Assembly (NCBI GenBank): GCA_003132905.1
Contig: PKZC01000155.1
Location: 1-6,080, forward strand
DNA: 6,080 nucleotides
Source of the DNA: Bryobacterales bacterium
GTDB taxonomy: Bacteria > Acidobacteriota > Terriglobia > Bryobacterales > Bryobacteraceae
Direction: 5' to 3'
Notes under the pieces: generated by a model
The model's input: only the letters and a program-made list of their open reading frames with translations
The model's database searches: none
Told to the model about the DNA's origin: nothing
Shown: in pieces, positions 67-5,810 of the stretch
Position numbering within the stretch: position 1 is the stretch's first letter
Layout: the number at the start of each line of letters is the position of its first letter
Program-made: the position numbers and the translations under genes

Positions 67-1467
67 TTAAGCCGAGACAGAAGCCTGGCGAGCGAGCAGA
101 CGATTACGATACGTGCGCAGCGAACCTTGGTGCTCTGCTGCCAGCTCGCCGACCATCACATCAAGTTCGGTCAATGCTTTCGGTATGGTCATCCAGGGAG
201 TTTCGCTCTCCCAATCGCCTCGAATGCGCCGGGCAATGTCGGCATCGATTGCAGCACGGTCTGTCTCGCTAAGTAGGTCGGGTCGCTCGAAATAAATGAG
301 CCTCCGCGCCAGCCGTCTGAACCGCCGGTCCGAAAATTGACTGGCTATTCCTGGCCGCTCCTCCCACGGGGAGAGATGAAAACGCCGGCTCAGTTCGATG
401 TCTTCCGAGGAGGGCCAACCCTTACCGTAGATCTGCAGCTCGACATGTTCGGACGGCTCGAAAATCCGCTCGGCGGCTACTGCCGCCGCAGTCAATCGCG
501 CAGTGAAGTCCGAATCGGACTGAATGCTCATGGCGGCCCGGACCAGATCCGACTCCTCCCGATGACCAAGGTGCTCCAGATCGAGCTCCCACAAAGGACA
601 TAGCAGCGGTGACGCGTTTGCCTTCACTCTCCTGACCGGAGACGAATACCCTTTTACGCGCTCGGCAAGATCGTCGGCGGCGAGGCGGCGCAGATCCTCG
701 ATGTCCGCTATCAGATCGAGGCAATAGTGAACGTTCGCATCGCTAGGACTGATGCCGATGCGCGTCAGCGGACGGACGCACCGCGTTCCCCCGAAGTTGT
801 CGAAATAGCCGAATGCAGGCTCCTCCCGCACGAATTCGACCACCGCGGCCTTTGACGCGAATCTGAGGAAGTTGGACCAAAGCTCCGGCGCATCCTGTCG
901 CACCTTCCGGCACAGCCGCAACGTCACATCGACGTCGGCCATCGCATTATGCGCCCGTCGCGCGGCGAAGCCGTTTGCTGCTGCCAGTTCGGCCAGCCGA
1001 AATATCGGCTTTCCGTCGTCATCTGTTGGTACGGAAAGTACGCCAGGTCGAAGCACCGCCACCGCGCGCATCAGATTTAAGACGTCGGCACGAGCGTTGT
1101 TGTTCGTATTTGTCAGAAAGGTCGGATGGAGGCACTGGTAGAACGCCTGCCGGAGAAACTCCTCGTCGAACCTGATCGAGTTGAAACCGAGAAACACCGC
1201 CGGCGACCACGCGGTCAGCGCCTTGTGGATCTCGCAGACCATCTCGTAGTGGGAGGGGCGAGAACCGTCGGTGATCTCCTCGATGGAAACACCAGTCAGG
1301 TGGAGCGCGTTCGGCGAAGGCACCACGTTGGAAAGCAATCTCGACCGTAGTTCGATCCGTTCGAGCTCATAGAGATTCTCGTCCGCTAGAACGGCGCCGA
1401 AATGGAGAATCTGATCGAACCGCTTGTTGAGGCCGGTTGTTTCGACGTCATAGATAACGAAACTCAA
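67..1467 (-). CDS. sbcB-like: Exonuclease I (SbcB) family 3'-5' single-strand DNA exonuclease
   Basis: 466 residues, close to the roughly 475 of E. coli exonuclease I. The N-terminal DEDDh (DnaQ-type) nuclease domain is intact: D7 and E9 in DVETTG, D101 in GFNSIRFDEE, and H173 and D178 in HNAMADVD. These are the expected metal-binding and catalytic residues. A stretch at about 140-178 (LRP, DDDGKPIFRLAEL, AANG, AHNAMADV) is diagnostic of ExoI rather than DnaQ or RNase T. The C-terminal part keeps the ExoI-specific region, including CLDL near 249 and QIYG near 345. The family degrades single-stranded DNA 3' to 5' in the cytoplasm, in repair and recombination. The start is TTG; an AGGTG Shine-Dalgarno lies 5 bases upstream, no other in-frame start precedes the motif, and the DEDD motif begins at residue 7. 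It is the last gene of the operon, 17 bases after the metallopeptidase. As an accessory copy beside CBASS its role is unknown. Confidence 0.93.
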   Translation of the reverse strand: MSFVIYDVETTGLNKRFDQILHFGAVLADENLYELERIELRSRLLSNVVPSPNALHLTGVSIEEITDGSRPSHYEMVCEIHKALTAWSPAVFLGFNSIRFDEEFLRQAFYQCLHPTFLTNTNNNARADVLNLMRAVAVLRPGVLSVPTDDDGKPIFRLAELAAANGFAARRAHNAMADVDVTLRLCRKVRQDAPELWSNFLRFASKAAVVEFVREEPAFGYFDNFGGTRCVRPLTRIGISPSDANVHYCLDLIADIEDLRRLAADDLAERVKGYSSPVRRVKANASPLLCPLWELDLEHLGHREESDLVRAAMSIQSDSDFTARLTAAAVAAERIFEPSEHVELQIYGKGWPSSEDIELSRRFHLSPWEERPGIASQFSDRRFRRLARRLIYFERPDLLSETDRAAIDADIARRIRGDWESETPWMTIPKALTELDVMVGELAAEHQGSLRTYRNRLLARQASVSA

Positions 1468-1472
1468 CGGGA

Positions 1473-1477
1473 CACCT
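1473..1477 (-). promoter_or_regulatory. Ribosome binding site fixing the TTG start of the exonuclease gene
   Basis: On the minus strand the sequence AGGTG sits 5 bases before the TTG at 1467-1465, inside the short gap after the metallopeptidase stop. No ATG or GTG lies in frame between that stop and the DEDD motif, so this site supports the rare TTG as the true start. Confidence 0.65.
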
Positions 1478-1484
1478 GCGGAAT

Positions 1485-2000
1485 CTAATCGGCTTCGCTC
1501 TGAAGACGAAGTTGTAGAGCCATTAGGCTCACACGGAATTTCTTGGCCAATCCAGCCAGCAGATTCTCGTCCTCGAAATCGAAATTCTTTCCCTCTATGA
1601 ACGCGGAAAGCAGCTCTCGCGGCATTAGCAATTCGGCCGCGAACGCGTTCGCTTCAATCTCATTCGAATCTGTACCGGTCGCCGAAACCAGATCTCGCCG
1701 GAGCGAACCTTTATCAACGTGCACAGCCATCGCCAGCTGCTCACTATGAAGATGTATGTGGGCCAATTCATGCGCCAAGGTGAAACGCTGTCGGTTCGGG
1801 TGATGAAGGGAGTTGATGCCAATCATCGATTTCCCATCCTTGACGAATGCCATTCCTGACAGCTCGTCGTCAAAGGGGGCATATTCGACCTTCACCCCGA
1901 GCGATCTTGCGATCCGCTCGATCGGCACAGGCGGCGCACGGACGCCGAACTCGTTGAGAAGCTTGCGGGCTTTCGCCCTCGCGTGCGCGACGTCATGCAT
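1485..2000 (-). CDS. capP: ImmA/IrrE-family zinc metallopeptidase, probable CBASS regulator CapP
   Basis: 171 residues, typical of compact ImmA/IrrE (COG2856) peptidases. The zinc motif HELAH is at 77-81 (H77, E78, H81). The family's second motif, EANAFAAELLMP, spans 116-127, and its first glutamate is the likely third zinc ligand. A short helical N-terminus (about 1-20) precedes the fold, as is usual. These enzymes cleave XRE-family repressors. In CBASS loci the pair is called CapP (protease) and CapH (repressor), and CapP is reported to be stimulated by single-stranded DNA. The gene starts 2 bases after the stop of the XRE gene; a weak AGCAGG lies about 12 bases upstream of ATG, so translational coupling is likely. 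Oddity: the protein has no cysteine, whereas a zinc-binding cysteine switch has been described for a CapP. A phage ImmA is the alternative reading, but no phage genes are present. Confidence 0.85.
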   Translation of the reverse strand: MHDVAHARAKARKLLNEFGVRAPPVPIERIARSLGVKVEYAPFDDELSGMAFVKDGKSMIGINSLHHPNRQRFTLAHELAHIHLHSEQLAMAVHVDKGSLRRDLVSATGTDSNEIEANAFAAELLMPRELLSAFIEGKNFDFEDENLLAGLAKKFRVSLMALQLRLQSEAD

Positions 2001-2002
2001 GT

Positions 2003-2326
2003 CTAGTGTTTGCCTGCTCTTCGAACGAAATATTCGAGTTGTGCCTTCTGCCGCTCGGTGACTGCGCTGCCGCCCGCGAAATTCACTGGCTCTGGAGAGT
2101 TCTCGAACGTCTTCGGAAGAAGGTCCAAGATCGAGTTCAACTGCAGCGCTGCGACGAGCTTATAGACGTGATGCAGCAATACCTTCTGCCGACCGGTCTC
2201 CAAGTTCGCTAAAGAGGCCCGAGTAAGCCCTATCAGCTTCGCGACTTCGGCTTGGGTGAGTTTCAGCTGCTTCCGCTGCTTGGCGGCACGCGAACCCAAC
2301 AGCCTGTAAATCTCCATGTCGGTCAT
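2003..2326 (-). CDS. capH: XRE-family helix-turn-helix repressor, probable CBASS regulator CapH
   Basis: 107 residues from the ATG at 2326. An XRE helix-turn-helix fills about residues 10-62: the run TQAEVAKLIGL at 24-34 is the first part and TRASLANLETG at 35-45 is the recognition helix and following turn. The C-terminal 40 residues are charged and less ordered-looking, where a CapP-type protease could cut and where a dimerisation segment would lie. It opens the operon and is divergent from the CBASS genes, the arrangement expected of a repressor of both. Start choice: the same frame stays open to an ATG at 2395, but the added 23 residues are hydrophobic, unlike an XRE N-terminus, and would place both inverted repeats inside the gene. 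I therefore prefer 2326, with 2317 also possible. None of these starts has a convincing Shine-Dalgarno. Confidence 0.82.
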   Translation of the reverse strand: MTDMEIYRLLGSRAAKQRKQLKLTQAEVAKLIGLTRASLANLETGRQKVLLHHVYKLVAALQLNSILDLLPKTFENSPEPVNFAGGSAVTERQKAQLEYFVRRAGKH

Positions 2327-2355
2327 CGCCGGCAGAAGAATCGCAATCGCTGAAT

Positions 2356-2367
2356 CTGTCAATACAG
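2356..2367. promoter_or_regulatory. Inverted repeat CTGT-N4-ACAG, possible CapH operator
   Basis: A perfect 4-bp palindrome with a CAAT spacer, the compact dyad form that small XRE repressors often bind. It lies 30 bases upstream of the preferred capH start. It overlaps TGTATT (minus strand, 2366-2361), the best -10-like element I found for leftward transcription, so binding here would give autorepression. The arms are short and could occur by chance. Confidence 0.4.
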
Positions 2368-2391
2368 CAAACAATCTTGTGCTTAACACAA
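2361..2391 (-). promoter_or_regulatory. Weak candidate promoter for capH-capP-exonuclease
   Basis: Read on the minus strand, TTGTGT (2391-2386) and TGTATT (2366-2361) are separated by 19 bases. Each matches four of six consensus positions, and the spacing is longer than ideal. Initiation just beyond would give a leader of roughly 30 bases to the ATG at 2326. This is the best pair I can see rather than a clear promoter. Confidence 0.25.
2377..2391. promoter_or_regulatory. Inverted repeat TTGTG-N5-CACAA, possible CapH operator
   Basis: A perfect 5-bp dyad with a CTTAA spacer. It covers the -35 element of the best rightward promoter candidate and the -35-like element of the leftward one, the position expected of a repressor site shared by both units. 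Its arms differ from those of the dyad at 2356-2367, so the two may not bind the same protein. Confidence 0.45.
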
Positions 2392-2411
2392 TCATTACGA
2401 AAATTTAATGT
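2383..2411 (+). promoter_or_regulatory. Candidate sigma70-type promoter for the CBASS operon
   Basis: TTAACA (2383-2388, five of six consensus positions) is followed after exactly 17 bases by TAATGT (2406-2411), which keeps the first T, second A and last T of the -10 consensus. It points toward the CBASS genes and its -35 lies in the dyad at 2377-2391. It would give a leader of about 95 bases before the small frame at 2515 and about 240 before cdnC. Confidence 0.4.
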
Positions 2412-2514
2412 AACCGAATGTCGACTCCTGGGTCCGGAACGGGCAGCCTGATGACACTCGCGAATCCTCGCGGGCGCCGGTGCTAAGCCTGGGCAGAAAA
2501 AGGTCGACGAAACA

Positions 2515-2664
2515 ATGAATTACTACGATCCGCTGCTCCAAGCCCGTCAGTCCCAGGTGGAGATCCTCGAAACCGTTTCTGGATCCAGGAGGCCAACGCC
2601 AAGCATCGGTATCAGGGCGTCGGGCATCTTCTGGTCGAATTGCGATCAGGAACTTGGGGTATGA
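2515..2664 (+). CDS. Small open reading frame overlapping the cdnC start, function unknown
   Basis: A 49-residue frame runs from ATG at 2515 to TGA at 2662-2664. An AAGG with a run of A before it lies 11 bases upstream. Its stop overlaps the cdnC start as ATGA, the arrangement used for translational coupling elsewhere in this operon. The protein begins MNYYDPLLQARQ and has no recognisable domain. Its first half (to about residue 21) looks protein-like, but its second half (SGSRRPTPSIGIRASG) looks less so. The cdnC frame through the same DNA reads more like protein (for example HLLVELRSGTWG just before the cdnC start). So this may be a coupling leader, a frameshifted remnant of an older gene, or chance. 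I do not recognise a family. Confidence 0.3.
   Translation: MNYYDPLLQARQSQVEILETVSGSRRPTPSIGIRASGIFWSNCDQELGV
2648..2652 (+). promoter_or_regulatory. Ribosome binding site supporting the cdnC start at 2661
   Basis: AGGAA lies 8 bases before ATG 2661. It decides against the in-frame TTG at 2640, which would add seven residues absent from the relatives I know and has no comparable site. Confidence 0.6.
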
Positions 2665-3626
2665 GCCGATTGCACGTTGATCACGCCGACATCGCCCGCT
2701 TCGCTGCTGAGCGGGTGAATCTGCCCAAGGACAAGGCCGACGAATACCGGGGGCAAGTCCGCCGGCTGCGGGACCGGCTGGAGACTTATATCTCCGAGCA
2801 TCCCGACTTCACCCTTAAGAAGATGATGCTCTCCGGAAGCCTCGCGAAGGGCACCGCGCTGCGCTCGCTGAATGACATCGACGTTGCCTGCTACATTAGC
2901 GGCGCCGATGCGCCGAAAGATGTGAAGGCGCTTCTCGAATATCTTGCCGAACGGCTGCGCAAGGCCTTCCCTAATTTCAGCCCCGATCAGGTTAAGCCGC
3001 AGACCTATAGCGTCACGGTCTCATTCAAGGGTTCCGGGCTGGATGTGGACGTGGTTCCTATCCTCTACGAAGGCGACAAGGATTGGTACGGCAATGTCGT
3101 GAGCCAAGAAGACGGCTCTCTCTTGAAGACCAACATCCCGTTCCATCTCGAGTTTATCCGCAAGCGCAAGACGGCGCAGGAGACGCACTTTACCCAGGTG
3201 GCGCGGGTCGTGAAATTCTGGACGCGCAAAGTGAAGAACGAGCAGGAGGGCTTCCGGTTCAAGTCGTTCATGGTCGAGCTCGTTCTCGCGCACATCGCCG
3301 ACGCCGGCGCTGACCTCTCCGATTATCCAGAGGCCTTGCAGCATTTCTTCACCTACATAGCCAAAAGCAATTTTCGCGAGCGCATCGTATTCAGCGATTA
3401 TTACAAGCCCTCGACCGTGGGCTCGATCACGGAGTTGGTCCAGATCATCGATCCGGTCAACGCTGCCAACAACGTGAGCCGGCTCTACACCGAGAAGCAG
3501 GCGAACGCGATTGTCGATGCCGCGCTTGATGCGGGCGATGCCATTGATGCAGCGCTGGCTGCGCCAACCAAGGGCGAGACGGTGCGATATTGGCAGCGGG
3601 TTTTTGGTTCCTCATTTCAGGTGTGA
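2661..3626 (+). CDS. cdnC: CD-NTase (cGAS/DncV-like nucleotidyltransferase), CdnC type
   Basis: 321 residues. The nucleotidyltransferase signature is complete: GSLAKGT at 59-65, the metal-binding pair D72 and D74 (NDIDV), and a third acidic site at D128/D130 (LDVDVV). A helical nucleotide-binding core follows, with FRFKSFMVELVLA at 199-210 and QIIDPVNAANNVSRLY at 261-276. The protein ends FGSSFQV. Much of this, including the YSVTVSF and QIIDP segments, matches my recollection of E. coli MS115-1 CdnC, which makes cyclic tri-AMP when bound by closed HORMA. The same product is inferred here, and the NucC effector downstream fits it. It acts in the cytoplasm as the alarm enzyme. It is the first core gene of the operon, with the HORMA gene 8 bases downstream. 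The start at ATG 2661 has a Shine-Dalgarno and fits the N-terminus MSRLHVDHADIARFA. Confidence 0.95.
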   Translation: MSRLHVDHADIARFAAERVNLPKDKADEYRGQVRRLRDRLETYISEHPDFTLKKMMLSGSLAKGTALRSLNDIDVACYISGADAPKDVKALLEYLAERLRKAFPNFSPDQVKPQTYSVTVSFKGSGLDVDVVPILYEGDKDWYGNVVSQEDGSLLKTNIPFHLEFIRKRKTAQETHFTQVARVVKFWTRKVKNEQEGFRFKSFMVELVLAHIADAGADLSDYPEALQHFFTYIAKSNFRERIVFSDYYKPSTVGSITELVQIIDPVNAANNVSRLYTEKQANAIVDAALDAGDAIDAALAAPTKGETVRYWQRVFGSSFQV

Positions 3627-3634
3627 TAACGAGC

Positions 3635-4150
3635 ATGAGCAGCAGCTACACTATTTCCGAAGCGACAACGTTCACCGTCACGCACGCGAGGCACATGGCC
3701 GCGAAAGTCGCGACGGACCTCAAGCGCATGCAGCGGCTTTACGGCTCGCCCAGCGATCTTGAAATCGCCAGCTACGAGACCGAGGTCGTCGAGTTGCTGA
3801 AGGCAGGCTACCTTGGCAAGGTCACCTACGGCTTTTGGCGCGACGGCTCGTGGATCGAGCCGACCTTGCGCTATACCGCCCAGGACCTCGCGGGCATCGC
3901 CGCGAACAACGACGATCCCGGTCGCGTGCGGGGCGGCGCTGACATCAGCAACTCGACGTTCCATTCCTATCTCACCTACAGCGCCAAATGGGACCAACTG
4001 ACGGCCGATGATCGGACGTCATTCAAGCGGACCTTGCCGTATTTCCGCAGCGGCGCATCTGAGCCTGGCGTAAACGGCTACTTCAGCCCTGACCTGGTCT
4101 ATTCGGCGGGCGGTCAGGCTCTCAACCGTGACAGCGTACGGAGCTGGTGA
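3635..4150 (+). CDS. cap7: Bacterial HORMA-domain CBASS activator (Cap7)
   Basis: 171 residues, the usual size of single-domain bacterial HORMA proteins. Recognisable family segments are THARHMAAKVATDLKRMQ at 16-33, the central strand region KVTYGF and LRYTA at about 62-82, and the C-terminal safety-belt region with NGYF at 147-150 and VYSAGGQALNRDSVRSW at 155-171. HORMA proteins switch between open and closed states by wrapping the C-terminal belt around a short closure peptide. In type III CBASS the closed, peptide-bound form binds and activates the CD-NTase, so this is the likely infection sensor; the peptide it senses is not identifiable here. The start is ATG 3635, 8 bases after the cdnC stop, with AGGTG about 11 bases upstream. 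A longer frame from 3590 would overlap cdnC and add a non-family N-terminus. Its stop overlaps the next start as TGATG. Confidence 0.93.
   Translation: MSSSYTISEATTFTVTHARHMAAKVATDLKRMQRLYGSPSDLEIASYETEVVELLKAGYLGKVTYGFWRDGSWIEPTLRYTAQDLAGIAANNDDPGRVRGGADISNSTFHSYLTYSAKWDQLTADDRTSFKRTLPYFRSGASEPGVNGYFSPDLVYSAGGQALNRDSVRSW
4140..4143 (+). promoter_or_regulatory. Ribosome binding site for the TRIP13-like gene
   Basis: GGAG lies 6 bases before ATG 4150, inside the end of the HORMA gene. Spacing favours this ATG over the in-frame GTG immediately before it at 4147. Confidence 0.6.
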
Positions 4151-5088
4151 TGAGCGCTACGACCAAACTCGACGATCTCTTCGAGCGGCGCATCGTCCTT
4201 CCGGACTTCGCCGCCCGCGACCGCCTTGCGGCGCTCGTCGGTCTCGATGACCAGAAAGCGCGGCTCACCAAGATTTTGGCGCTGCTGGTCAACCCCGCGG
4301 GCCTTGAGACGTGGGCTCACAAGCATCACCCGAAAATGAATGGCTTGCTAAAAACGATCCTACGGCGCCCGCCACTGGTCGTGCTCGCGGGCGATGTTGG
4401 CTCGGGAAAGACGGAACTTGCAGAAACCATTGGCGACGCGGTGGCACGTCAAGAAGGGATCGATATCACGCTCTTCCCCTTGAGCCTCTCCACGCGCGGA
4501 CAAGGCCGCGTTGGCGAGATGACTCAGCTCCTCTCGGCTGCATTCGACCATACACTCGCCGAGGCCACGAAGCTGAAAGCGGCTTCCGGCAAATCACGCG
4601 GCGGCATCATTCTACTGGTCGACGAAGCCGACGCGCTCGCGCAATCACGCGAAAACGTGCAGATGCACCACGAGGACCGAGCAGGGGTCAATGCCTTTAT
4701 CCGCGGGATCAACCGCATCGGCAACAGCGCGTTGCCTGCGGCCGTGATCATGTGCACCAACCGCCTTGGGGCGCTTGATCCGGCTGTACGCCGCCGCGCC
4801 GCCGACATTCTGGTCTTCCAAAGACCGGACGATGCACAGCGGCGTGCTTTGCTCAGCGGCCCGCTTACCGAACTCGGATTCTCGCCCGCGCAGATCGAAC
4901 AGATCGTCACCGCGACCGGCCCCCGAAGCCAGCCCGGATACGGCTTCACCTTCTCCGACCTCGCGCAGCGGCTACTGCCGGGTATTGTGCTCGACGCTTA
5001 TCCGGCGAAGGCGGTTATGCCCGCGCGCGCGATCGAGATCGCGAAGAGCCTCGTGCCCACGCCGCCCTTTGAGGAAAAATCCGTATGA
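4150..5088 (+). CDS. cap6: TRIP13/Pch2-like AAA+ ATPase, CBASS regulator (Cap6)
   Basis: 312 residues from ATG 4150 (313 if the adjacent GTG is used). The AAA+ core is complete: Walker A GDVGSGKTE at 81-89 (K87), Walker B IILLVDEAD at 153-161 (D158, E159), sensor-1 MCTNR at 201-205, an arginine-finger region PAVRRRA at 211-217, and a C-terminal lid with GYGFTFSDLAQRLLPG at 263-278. A short N-terminal substrate-recognition segment precedes it. Hexamers of this family unfold the HORMA N-terminus to release the bound peptide and reopen the protein. In CBASS this switches the CD-NTase off and sets the activation threshold. The gene starts on the HORMA stop (TGATG) and its own stop overlaps the NucC start (ATGA), so HORMA, remodeller and effector are translationally linked. 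Pch2-like identity rests mainly on context plus the motif set. Confidence 0.93.
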   Translation: MSATTKLDDLFERRIVLPDFAARDRLAALVGLDDQKARLTKILALLVNPAGLETWAHKHHPKMNGLLKTILRRPPLVVLAGDVGSGKTELAETIGDAVARQEGIDITLFPLSLSTRGQGRVGEMTQLLSAAFDHTLAEATKLKAASGKSRGGIILLVDEADALAQSRENVQMHHEDRAGVNAFIRGINRIGNSALPAAVIMCTNRLGALDPAVRRRAADILVFQRPDDAQRRALLSGPLTELGFSPAQIEQIVTATGPRSQPGYGFTFSDLAQRLLPGIVLDAYPAKAVMPARAIEIAKSLVPTPPFEEKSV

Positions 5089-5810
5089 GCTCGTGGTCGC
5101 TATCCCAACTGCTTTCGGGGCTGCACGACGACATCCAGCAGAAACTGGAAATTTCGCGCAAGTCCTTCGGCCATCCCGGCACCAAGGGTGACGCGAGCGA
5201 GTCCGTCTGGCTCGAAATGCTGCAAGCCTACCTCCCGCAGCGTTACCAAGCAGCGACGGCCCACGTCGTCGATAGCCATGGCAATTTCAGTGACCAGATC
5301 GACGTCGTTGTGTTCGACCGCCAATACTCGCCGTTTATTTTCAGGTACCAGGGCCAGACCATTGTCCCCGCCGAAAGCGTGTACGCCGCGCTCGAAGCTA
5401 AGCAGTCGATCAACGCCGCGCAGGTGCAGTACGCGCAGGACAAGGTCGCCACAGTTCGCCGCCTTCACCGCACGAGCTTGCCGATCCCACATGCGGGCGG
5501 CGTCTATCCGGCAAAGGCCTTGATCCCCATCCTCGGCGGCGTGCTGACCTTCGAGAGTGACTGGAATCCTCCGCTTGGCCCGCCCTTGGAGAAGTCGTTG
5601 AATAATGGCAATGCGGACGGGCGGCTCGACATCGGCTGCATCGCGGCCCATGGGCATTTCACATACGACGGGGCTGCCAAGCGTTACGTCTTCACGTCCG
5701 AGGGACGGCCGGCGACCGCGTTCCTGTTCAACTTGATTTCGACGCTACAGTTTAGCGGCACCGTTCCAATGATCGACATCCAGGCCTATGCGCGGTGGTT
5801 GGCTCAGTAA
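5085..5810 (+). CDS. nucC: CBASS effector nuclease NucC, cyclic tri-AMP-activated DNA endonuclease
   Basis: 241 residues, the same length as E. coli MS115-1 NucC as I recall it, and alignable without gaps by eye. The restriction-endonuclease-like active site is intact: D73 (QIDVVVFDR), E104 and K106 (ALEAK). Residues reported to line the cyclic tri-adenylate pocket are also at the same positions: R53, Y81 and T226. Family segments include KSFGHPGTKGDASE at 26-39, RRLHRTSLPIPHAGG at 125-139 and FSGTVPMID at 223-231. NucC is a trimer that binds cyclic tri-AMP, pairs into a hexamer and cuts double-stranded DNA, destroying the host chromosome before phage release. It is the last gene of the operon; a GAGGA at 5071-5075 lies 9 bases before its ATG, which overlaps the ATPase stop. 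Some relatives serve type III CRISPR loci, but no CRISPR genes or arrays are here. Confidence 0.97.
   Translation: MSSWSLSQLLSGLHDDIQQKLEISRKSFGHPGTKGDASESVWLEMLQAYLPQRYQAATAHVVDSHGNFSDQIDVVVFDRQYSPFIFRYQGQTIVPAESVYAALEAKQSINAAQVQYAQDKVATVRRLHRTSLPIPHAGGVYPAKALIPILGGVLTFESDWNPPLGPPLEKSLNNGNADGRLDIGCIAAHGHFTYDGAAKRYVFTSEGRPATAFLFNLISTLQFSGTVPMIDIQAYARWLAQ

Follow-up and report, generated by a model that had tools for sequence, protein, structure and literature searches.

The window analysed here is a whole 6,080-nucleotide stretch of DNA (positions 1 to 6,080 of contig PKZC01000155.1, assembly GCA_003132905.1, from a Bryobacterales bacterium), and our subject is the regulatory arm on its minus strand, in which an XRE repressor, a CapP/IrrE-type zinc protease and an intact Exonuclease I (ExoI) homologue form one unit that is probably co-transcribed. 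This unit is divergent from a plus-strand operon of a cyclic-oligonucleotide-based antiphage signalling system (CBASS), whose CdnC, HORMA, TRIP13 and NucC genes are all intact and in order. A reading of the letters alone (the sequence-only reading) had reported an intact SbcB-type exonuclease gene behind XRE and ImmA-like genes, and we found the same arrangement, with gaps of 2 and 17 bases. The features are as follows.

67..1467, minus strand: Exonuclease I (SbcB-family) homologue, the arm's third gene; 466 residues, TTG start, DEDDh catalytic residues intact
1485..2000, minus strand: short CapP-like zinc metalloprotease (ImmA/IrrE, Peptidase_M78); 171 residues, HExxH and downstream Glu conserved
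2003..2326, minus strand: CapH-like XRE repressor; the ATG at 2326 agrees with relatives, and the open frame extends to 2395
2327..2660, no strand: intergenic region common to both divergent units, presumed to hold both promoters
2377..2391, no strand: candidate operator, inverted repeat TTGTG-N5-CACAA; similar repeats precede other arms
2661..3626, plus strand: CBASS oligonucleotide cyclase, CdnC type (family scans, frame read from 2640)
3635..4150, plus strand: HORMA protein, Cap7 (family scans, frame read from 3590; start set by eye)
4147..5088, plus strand: TRIP13-type AAA ATPase, Cap6 (family scans)
5085..5810, plus strand: NucC effector endonuclease, DUF6602 (family scans)

An XRE repressor gene that adjoins an IrrE/M78 zinc protease with HExxH, and a place divergent from or beside an immune operon, are two marks of a CapH-CapP controller, and the window has both. 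More specifically, the arm is a three-gene, ExoI-bearing, short-CapP controller; the idea of signal removal is already in print for another enzyme, Cap18. CapH plus CapP controls CBASS in response to DNA damage (Lau et al. 2022, as known via PMC13373217 and PMC10904395), and CapW/BrxR, CapH plus CapP, and CapK plus CapS are DNA-damage controllers of diverse immune operons (PMC13373217).

When the predicted structure of the exonuclease is compared with solved ExoI, the full fold is present (the N-terminal DEDDh domain and the C-terminal domains), with 23–24% identity in the structure alignment. The catalytic residues are invariant in all 80 distinct exonucleases from the loci described below, which together with the full fold argues that digestion matters; as predicted from these residues, the window enzyme presumably digests single-stranded DNA in the 3'-5' direction. 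The NCBIfam equivalog model for exodeoxyribonuclease I (SbcB) gives it 181.8 bits, below the cut-off of 260, so we call it an ExoI homologue, orthology with SbcB not being established. Its best PADLOC model is RTasSbcB (398 bits), a name that points to defence reverse transcriptases. R140, which we take to be the equivalent of E. coli R148, a contact with single-stranded DNA-binding protein, is not conserved among relatives and is therefore not used as evidence.

The window-type exonuclease thus has the fold and catalytic residues of SbcB, but unlike SbcB it is accessory, sporadic and tied to defence controllers. If it were the host's single housekeeping SbcB, the idea in the sequence-only reading would fall; this is rejected, because only 14/146 genomes of the sampled genus (that of G002, labelled Bradyrhizobium) have any ExoI-like gene at E 1e-20. 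A class sample gave an exonuclease match in 31/385 genomes (32 places), and a short CapP adjoins in 4/32; the class-sample relatives without short CapP, many of them in small genomes, are a wider family. Searched at E 1e-5, 23 genomes with fetched loci gave a single match in 20 cases and two matches in another; an intact plus a split copy occur in one more, and in the last, gammaproteobacterial, there is a second match that is distant. Exonucleases outside trios occur in 3/23. Viral contigs held no relative in a scan that reached close kin only, phage records gave one (a 2.2-kb record, 30% identity), and a near-identity search of plasmids gave no match.

The arrangement is not limited to one genome, which would also have counted against the sequence-only reading. 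We assembled 86 loci (the window, five plasmid loci and the best 80 of 249 genome relatives, so the genome loci lean to close kin), in which 80/86 exonucleases are distinct. Genes were called by script as the longest open reading frame, and the genome search scored preselected candidates only, so misses are possible. A protease lies directly upstream on the same strand as the exonuclease in 75/86 loci, and in 72 the repressor is there too. The plasmid search matched seven of 42 records at 38–49% identity and no less than 85% query coverage; five were examined, the other two being, by identity, apparent near-copies from R. leguminosarum. All five have the order XRE, ImmA/IrrE protease, exonuclease, divergent from a defence operon, and they face multiubiquitin/ThiF (Bub) genes (L001, L002), Bil-type genes (L003, L004; labelled by similarity comparison with scanned representatives) or a cyclase-SLATT CBASS (L005).

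There are 67 distinct loci whose protease is full-length, and all but L074 have a recognised repressor. Defence labels come from curated scans of chosen representatives and phmmer similarity to these, and cover only the opposite strand within about 10 kb upstream. An assigned defence-type operon faces 61/67 loci: 20 CBASS of several architectures, 16 Bub, 12 Bil, five E2-ThiF-JAB/patatin, four other E1 and four Thoeris-like, with weaker labels for L030 and L041 (single scans), L045 (gene sizes), L065 (one E1 gene) and "Thoeris" (the TIR/ThsB gene alone). No type was assigned in L042, L055, L063, L069, L074 and L077. We reject the exonuclease as a part of CBASS proper, its relatives also facing Bub, Bil, Thoeris-like and other systems.

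The exonuclease and protease stay together while the system opposite them changes. The six defence types imply no fewer than 16 changes on the exonuclease tree, which was built quickly and has long branches and unresolved forks. The correlation between exonuclease and protease distances is 0.86 (0/2000 permutations as high) and is 0.65 for pairs of loci whose types differ or are unassigned, although a locus has the same closest relative by both proteins in only 36/66 cases. Because the trio is kept together while the defence type changes, the exonuclease appears to serve the regulator and not one effector, as the sequence-only reading had supposed. This bears on another explanation, in which the exonuclease would act against phage or in DNA repair and be merely co-induced with the immune operon. 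Relatives do occur outside trios (11/86 loci), 28/32 class-sample places have no adjoining short CapP match and the nearest PADLOC model is a reverse transcriptase-associated SbcB, but the gene follows the regulator and not the effectors, lying directly behind the protease gene in most loci, and we consider co-induction distinctly unlikely.

The window differs from canonical CapH plus CapP in its protease as well as in its extra gene. The window protease has 171 residues (268–300 in four canonical arms) and is without the C-terminal 101–115 residues of those four CapPs, its alignment to 7t5t covering 6–182 only. In canonical CapP a conserved cysteine acts as a switch, and this column is Leu or Ile in 67/67 distinct short proteases, all of which keep H77, E78, H81 and E114. 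The window repressor is only distantly similar to those of canonical arms. The sequence-only reading overlooked that the window CapP is a short form, so its statement that single-stranded DNA stimulates this CapP does not stand as made: it was carried over from long CapP.

Of the two CapP forms, only the short one was found with the exonuclease. An adjoining exonuclease was found in 17/35 places with a short CapP of any form, in 17/18 places of one subfamily, and in 0/24 places with a long CapP (absence being defined as no exonuclease match on the same contig). A count of this kind had been proposed in the sequence-only reading. The short-CapP groups were split at 220 bits, a cut chosen after the scores were known; above it an exonuclease adjoins in 14/15 places of the genus sample and 4/4 of the class sample (one place is in both), and below it in 0/11 and 0/6. 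Six of the 15 high-scoring genus places are apparently copies of one, two have broken exonucleases (G054, truncated; G008 C11, split), and one has none (G084). The truncated exonuclease (L143, in G054) and the one split into two pieces (L100/L101, in G008) still adjoin a short CapP with an open frame. The remaining 18/35 places have short CapP-CapH pairs without exonuclease, several of them beside Bil or E1 genes.

For canonical arms, we inspected five plasmid records (L128–L132; four with a long capP) out of 114 that matched NucC, and an exonuclease as third gene is rejected in these five. In L130 the gene behind capP belongs to no recognised family. L128 has an RNase_T-type gene nearby, but on the opposite strand and beyond other genes, and its best alignment to the window enzyme spans 26 residues. 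L131 has a different arrangement at 2427–3488: a NucC-type CBASS with a divergent single XRE-family protein of about 353 residues, then a weakly PIN-like gene, in place of capH-capP.

One explanation of this complementarity is that the exonuclease is a DNA-sensing subunit, which binds single-stranded DNA and passes the signal to short CapP, so that the pair replaces a one-chain sensor-protease; we think this unlikely. The ExoI homologue would then be the receptor that replaces short CapP's lacking C-terminal region, with digestion of the bound end as a built-in timer and the trio as a mobile DNA-damage checkpoint, a doubtful extension which, if true, would mean that one checkpoint can be coupled to CBASS, Bub, Bil and Thoeris-like systems. 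A sensor accounts better than a brake for an exonuclease that is present where a CapP region is missing. However, 18/35 short CapH-CapP places do without it, including G084 inside the high-scoring subfamily, and mere binding would not need invariant catalytic residues. Furthermore, PprI binds single-stranded DNA near its helix-turn-helix, a part seemingly kept in the short form (PMC10904395).

The simplest interpretation is a feedback brake, in which the exonuclease trims the single-stranded DNA signal and so acts as both brake and reset; we give this about an even chance. The minus-strand genes would be a portable, self-contained controller of any immune operon across the divergent promoter, with the XRE protein repressing both units. 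DNA damage or phage would give rise to a signal, probably single-stranded DNA, that makes short CapP cut the repressor, which we infer from CapP and IrrE. The ExoI homologue, presumably made from the same transcript, would digest 3' ends of single-stranded DNA, raising the threshold for activation and ending the signal once derepression has lifted its own level, i.e., negative feedback. Routine DNA damage would then most likely not trip the defence. Short CapP-CapH pairs without exonuclease beside the same kinds of system fit a modulator rather than an essential part. TREX1 restrains cGAS, and the exonuclease is cast in a comparable role.

Its role would also be comparable to that of host ExoI for the DRT9 system, where ExoI holds the poly-dA signal low and wild-type DRT9 gave no transformants without sbcB (PMC12483538). 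Host ExoI keeps the single-stranded DNA made by DRT9 from reaching toxic amounts, and the window enzyme would act likewise, but DRT9's ExoI is a host gene outside the controller (PMC12483538).

The exonuclease could instead make or sustain the signal, or clear 3' ends of damaged or phage DNA and let other factors uncover further single strands, and thereby promote induction. The active site is conserved, and NucC, which cuts DNA, would supply substrate opposite the window trio. However, ExoI degrades single strands, and the trio also faces Thoeris-like and Bub loci, where the scans made recognised no DNA-cutting effector. Promotion of induction is very unlikely in our view.

Several points weigh against the brake. 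We found no expression, cleavage or digestion result for any member, and the direction of the exonuclease's effect is a prediction. Such controllers do not generally need a brake, since none of the 24 long-CapP places was found with this enzyme, and a pure brake leaves the missing CapP C-terminal region in exonuclease-linked forms unexplained. Defence types are clustered on the tree, with 26 changes over eight labels compared with a shuffled mean of 51.6 (0/200 as low). Judged from these sequences, the trio swaps partner systems repeatedly but not freely, and the travelling unit is the controller including the exonuclease. Finally, phage protection in E. coli upec-117 was unaffected when Cap18 was catalytically inactivated (PMC9122588), a result that concerns protection, not induction, and another enzyme family.

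Cap18 is a DEDDh-kind exonuclease. Like the window enzyme, for which this activity is predicted, it is a 3'-5' exonuclease linked to CBASS and CapH-plus-CapP-type control; unlike it, Cap18 (PDB 7T2S) has 187 residues rather than 466 and is outside the ExoI family. That the window enzyme is Cap18 under another name is rejected by sequence: the ExoI profile matches 7T2S at E 0.13 (14 bits), below several oligoribonucleases in score, and ExoI at 1.3e-57. The two may be kin at the level of fold within the exonuclease domain. In upec-117, Cap18 is listed behind the HORMA and TRIP13 genes (PMC9122588).

The sequence-only reading knew of no such three-gene arm, and our literature search turned up none, although Liang 2022 and Lau 2022 were beyond its reach and absence from print is not established. 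Regulation of CapH plus CapP by an exonuclease was, however, already proposed: Cap18, occurring with CapW or CapH plus CapP, may regulate activation by removing single-stranded DNA or RNA (PMC10419184, citing Liang et al. 2022). The apparently new elements are the ExoI family, the gene's location within the transcription unit of the regulator and the variety of systems faced. CapK plus CapS is likewise a portable controller activated by single-stranded DNA upstream of Bub, CBASS and others, but it is a kinase and STAS repressor, and the word "exonuclease" is absent from the main text of that paper (PMC13373217).

An immune system that kills its own cell must set its threshold so as to tell infection from routine repair, and a controller that brings along an enzyme to degrade the signal would meet this need directly and in a testable way. 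It would also be a bacterial parallel to TREX1 restraining cGAS, here ahead of true cGAS-like enzymes. Since the trio stands beside at least five kinds of system, a result on one would bear on all.

The trio also flags unassigned neighbours as defence candidates. Three sphingomonad loci (L063, L069, L077) have conserved small genes of about 117, 109, 108 and 163 residues opposite the trio at about 7300–9040, possibly an undescribed defence operon; one is DUF3892, one is weakly phosphatase-like (L063), and the 163-residue protein has no PADLOC match. In a Candidatus Entotheonella locus (L055, 6855–8936), the trio lies opposite an ATPase that has two AAA segments and shows IetA-like matches. The 11 loci without an upstream protease comprise five behind recombinase/integrase-like genes (by eye), two near contig ends and four behind unrelated frames. 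Three ExoI relatives without capH/capP (L029, L032, L047) lie behind a conserved protein of 65–67 residues with repeated DxxGR/GW-like motifs and near recombinase-like genes, another mobile setting for the enzyme.

In the intergenic region, a sigma-70 promoter scan of window 2250–2750 gave no consensus match. TTGTG-N5-CACAA-type inverted repeats occur in 23/66 upstream regions (2.4 in base shuffles) and a CAAAC/GTTTG motif in 28/66 (2.6 in base shuffles), an excess that is inflated because the motif had been chosen using the very regions that were then counted. A short reading frame ahead of the cyclase (2515–2660; MNYYDPLLQARQ...) may continue in another frame and is possibly a gene remnant or leader.
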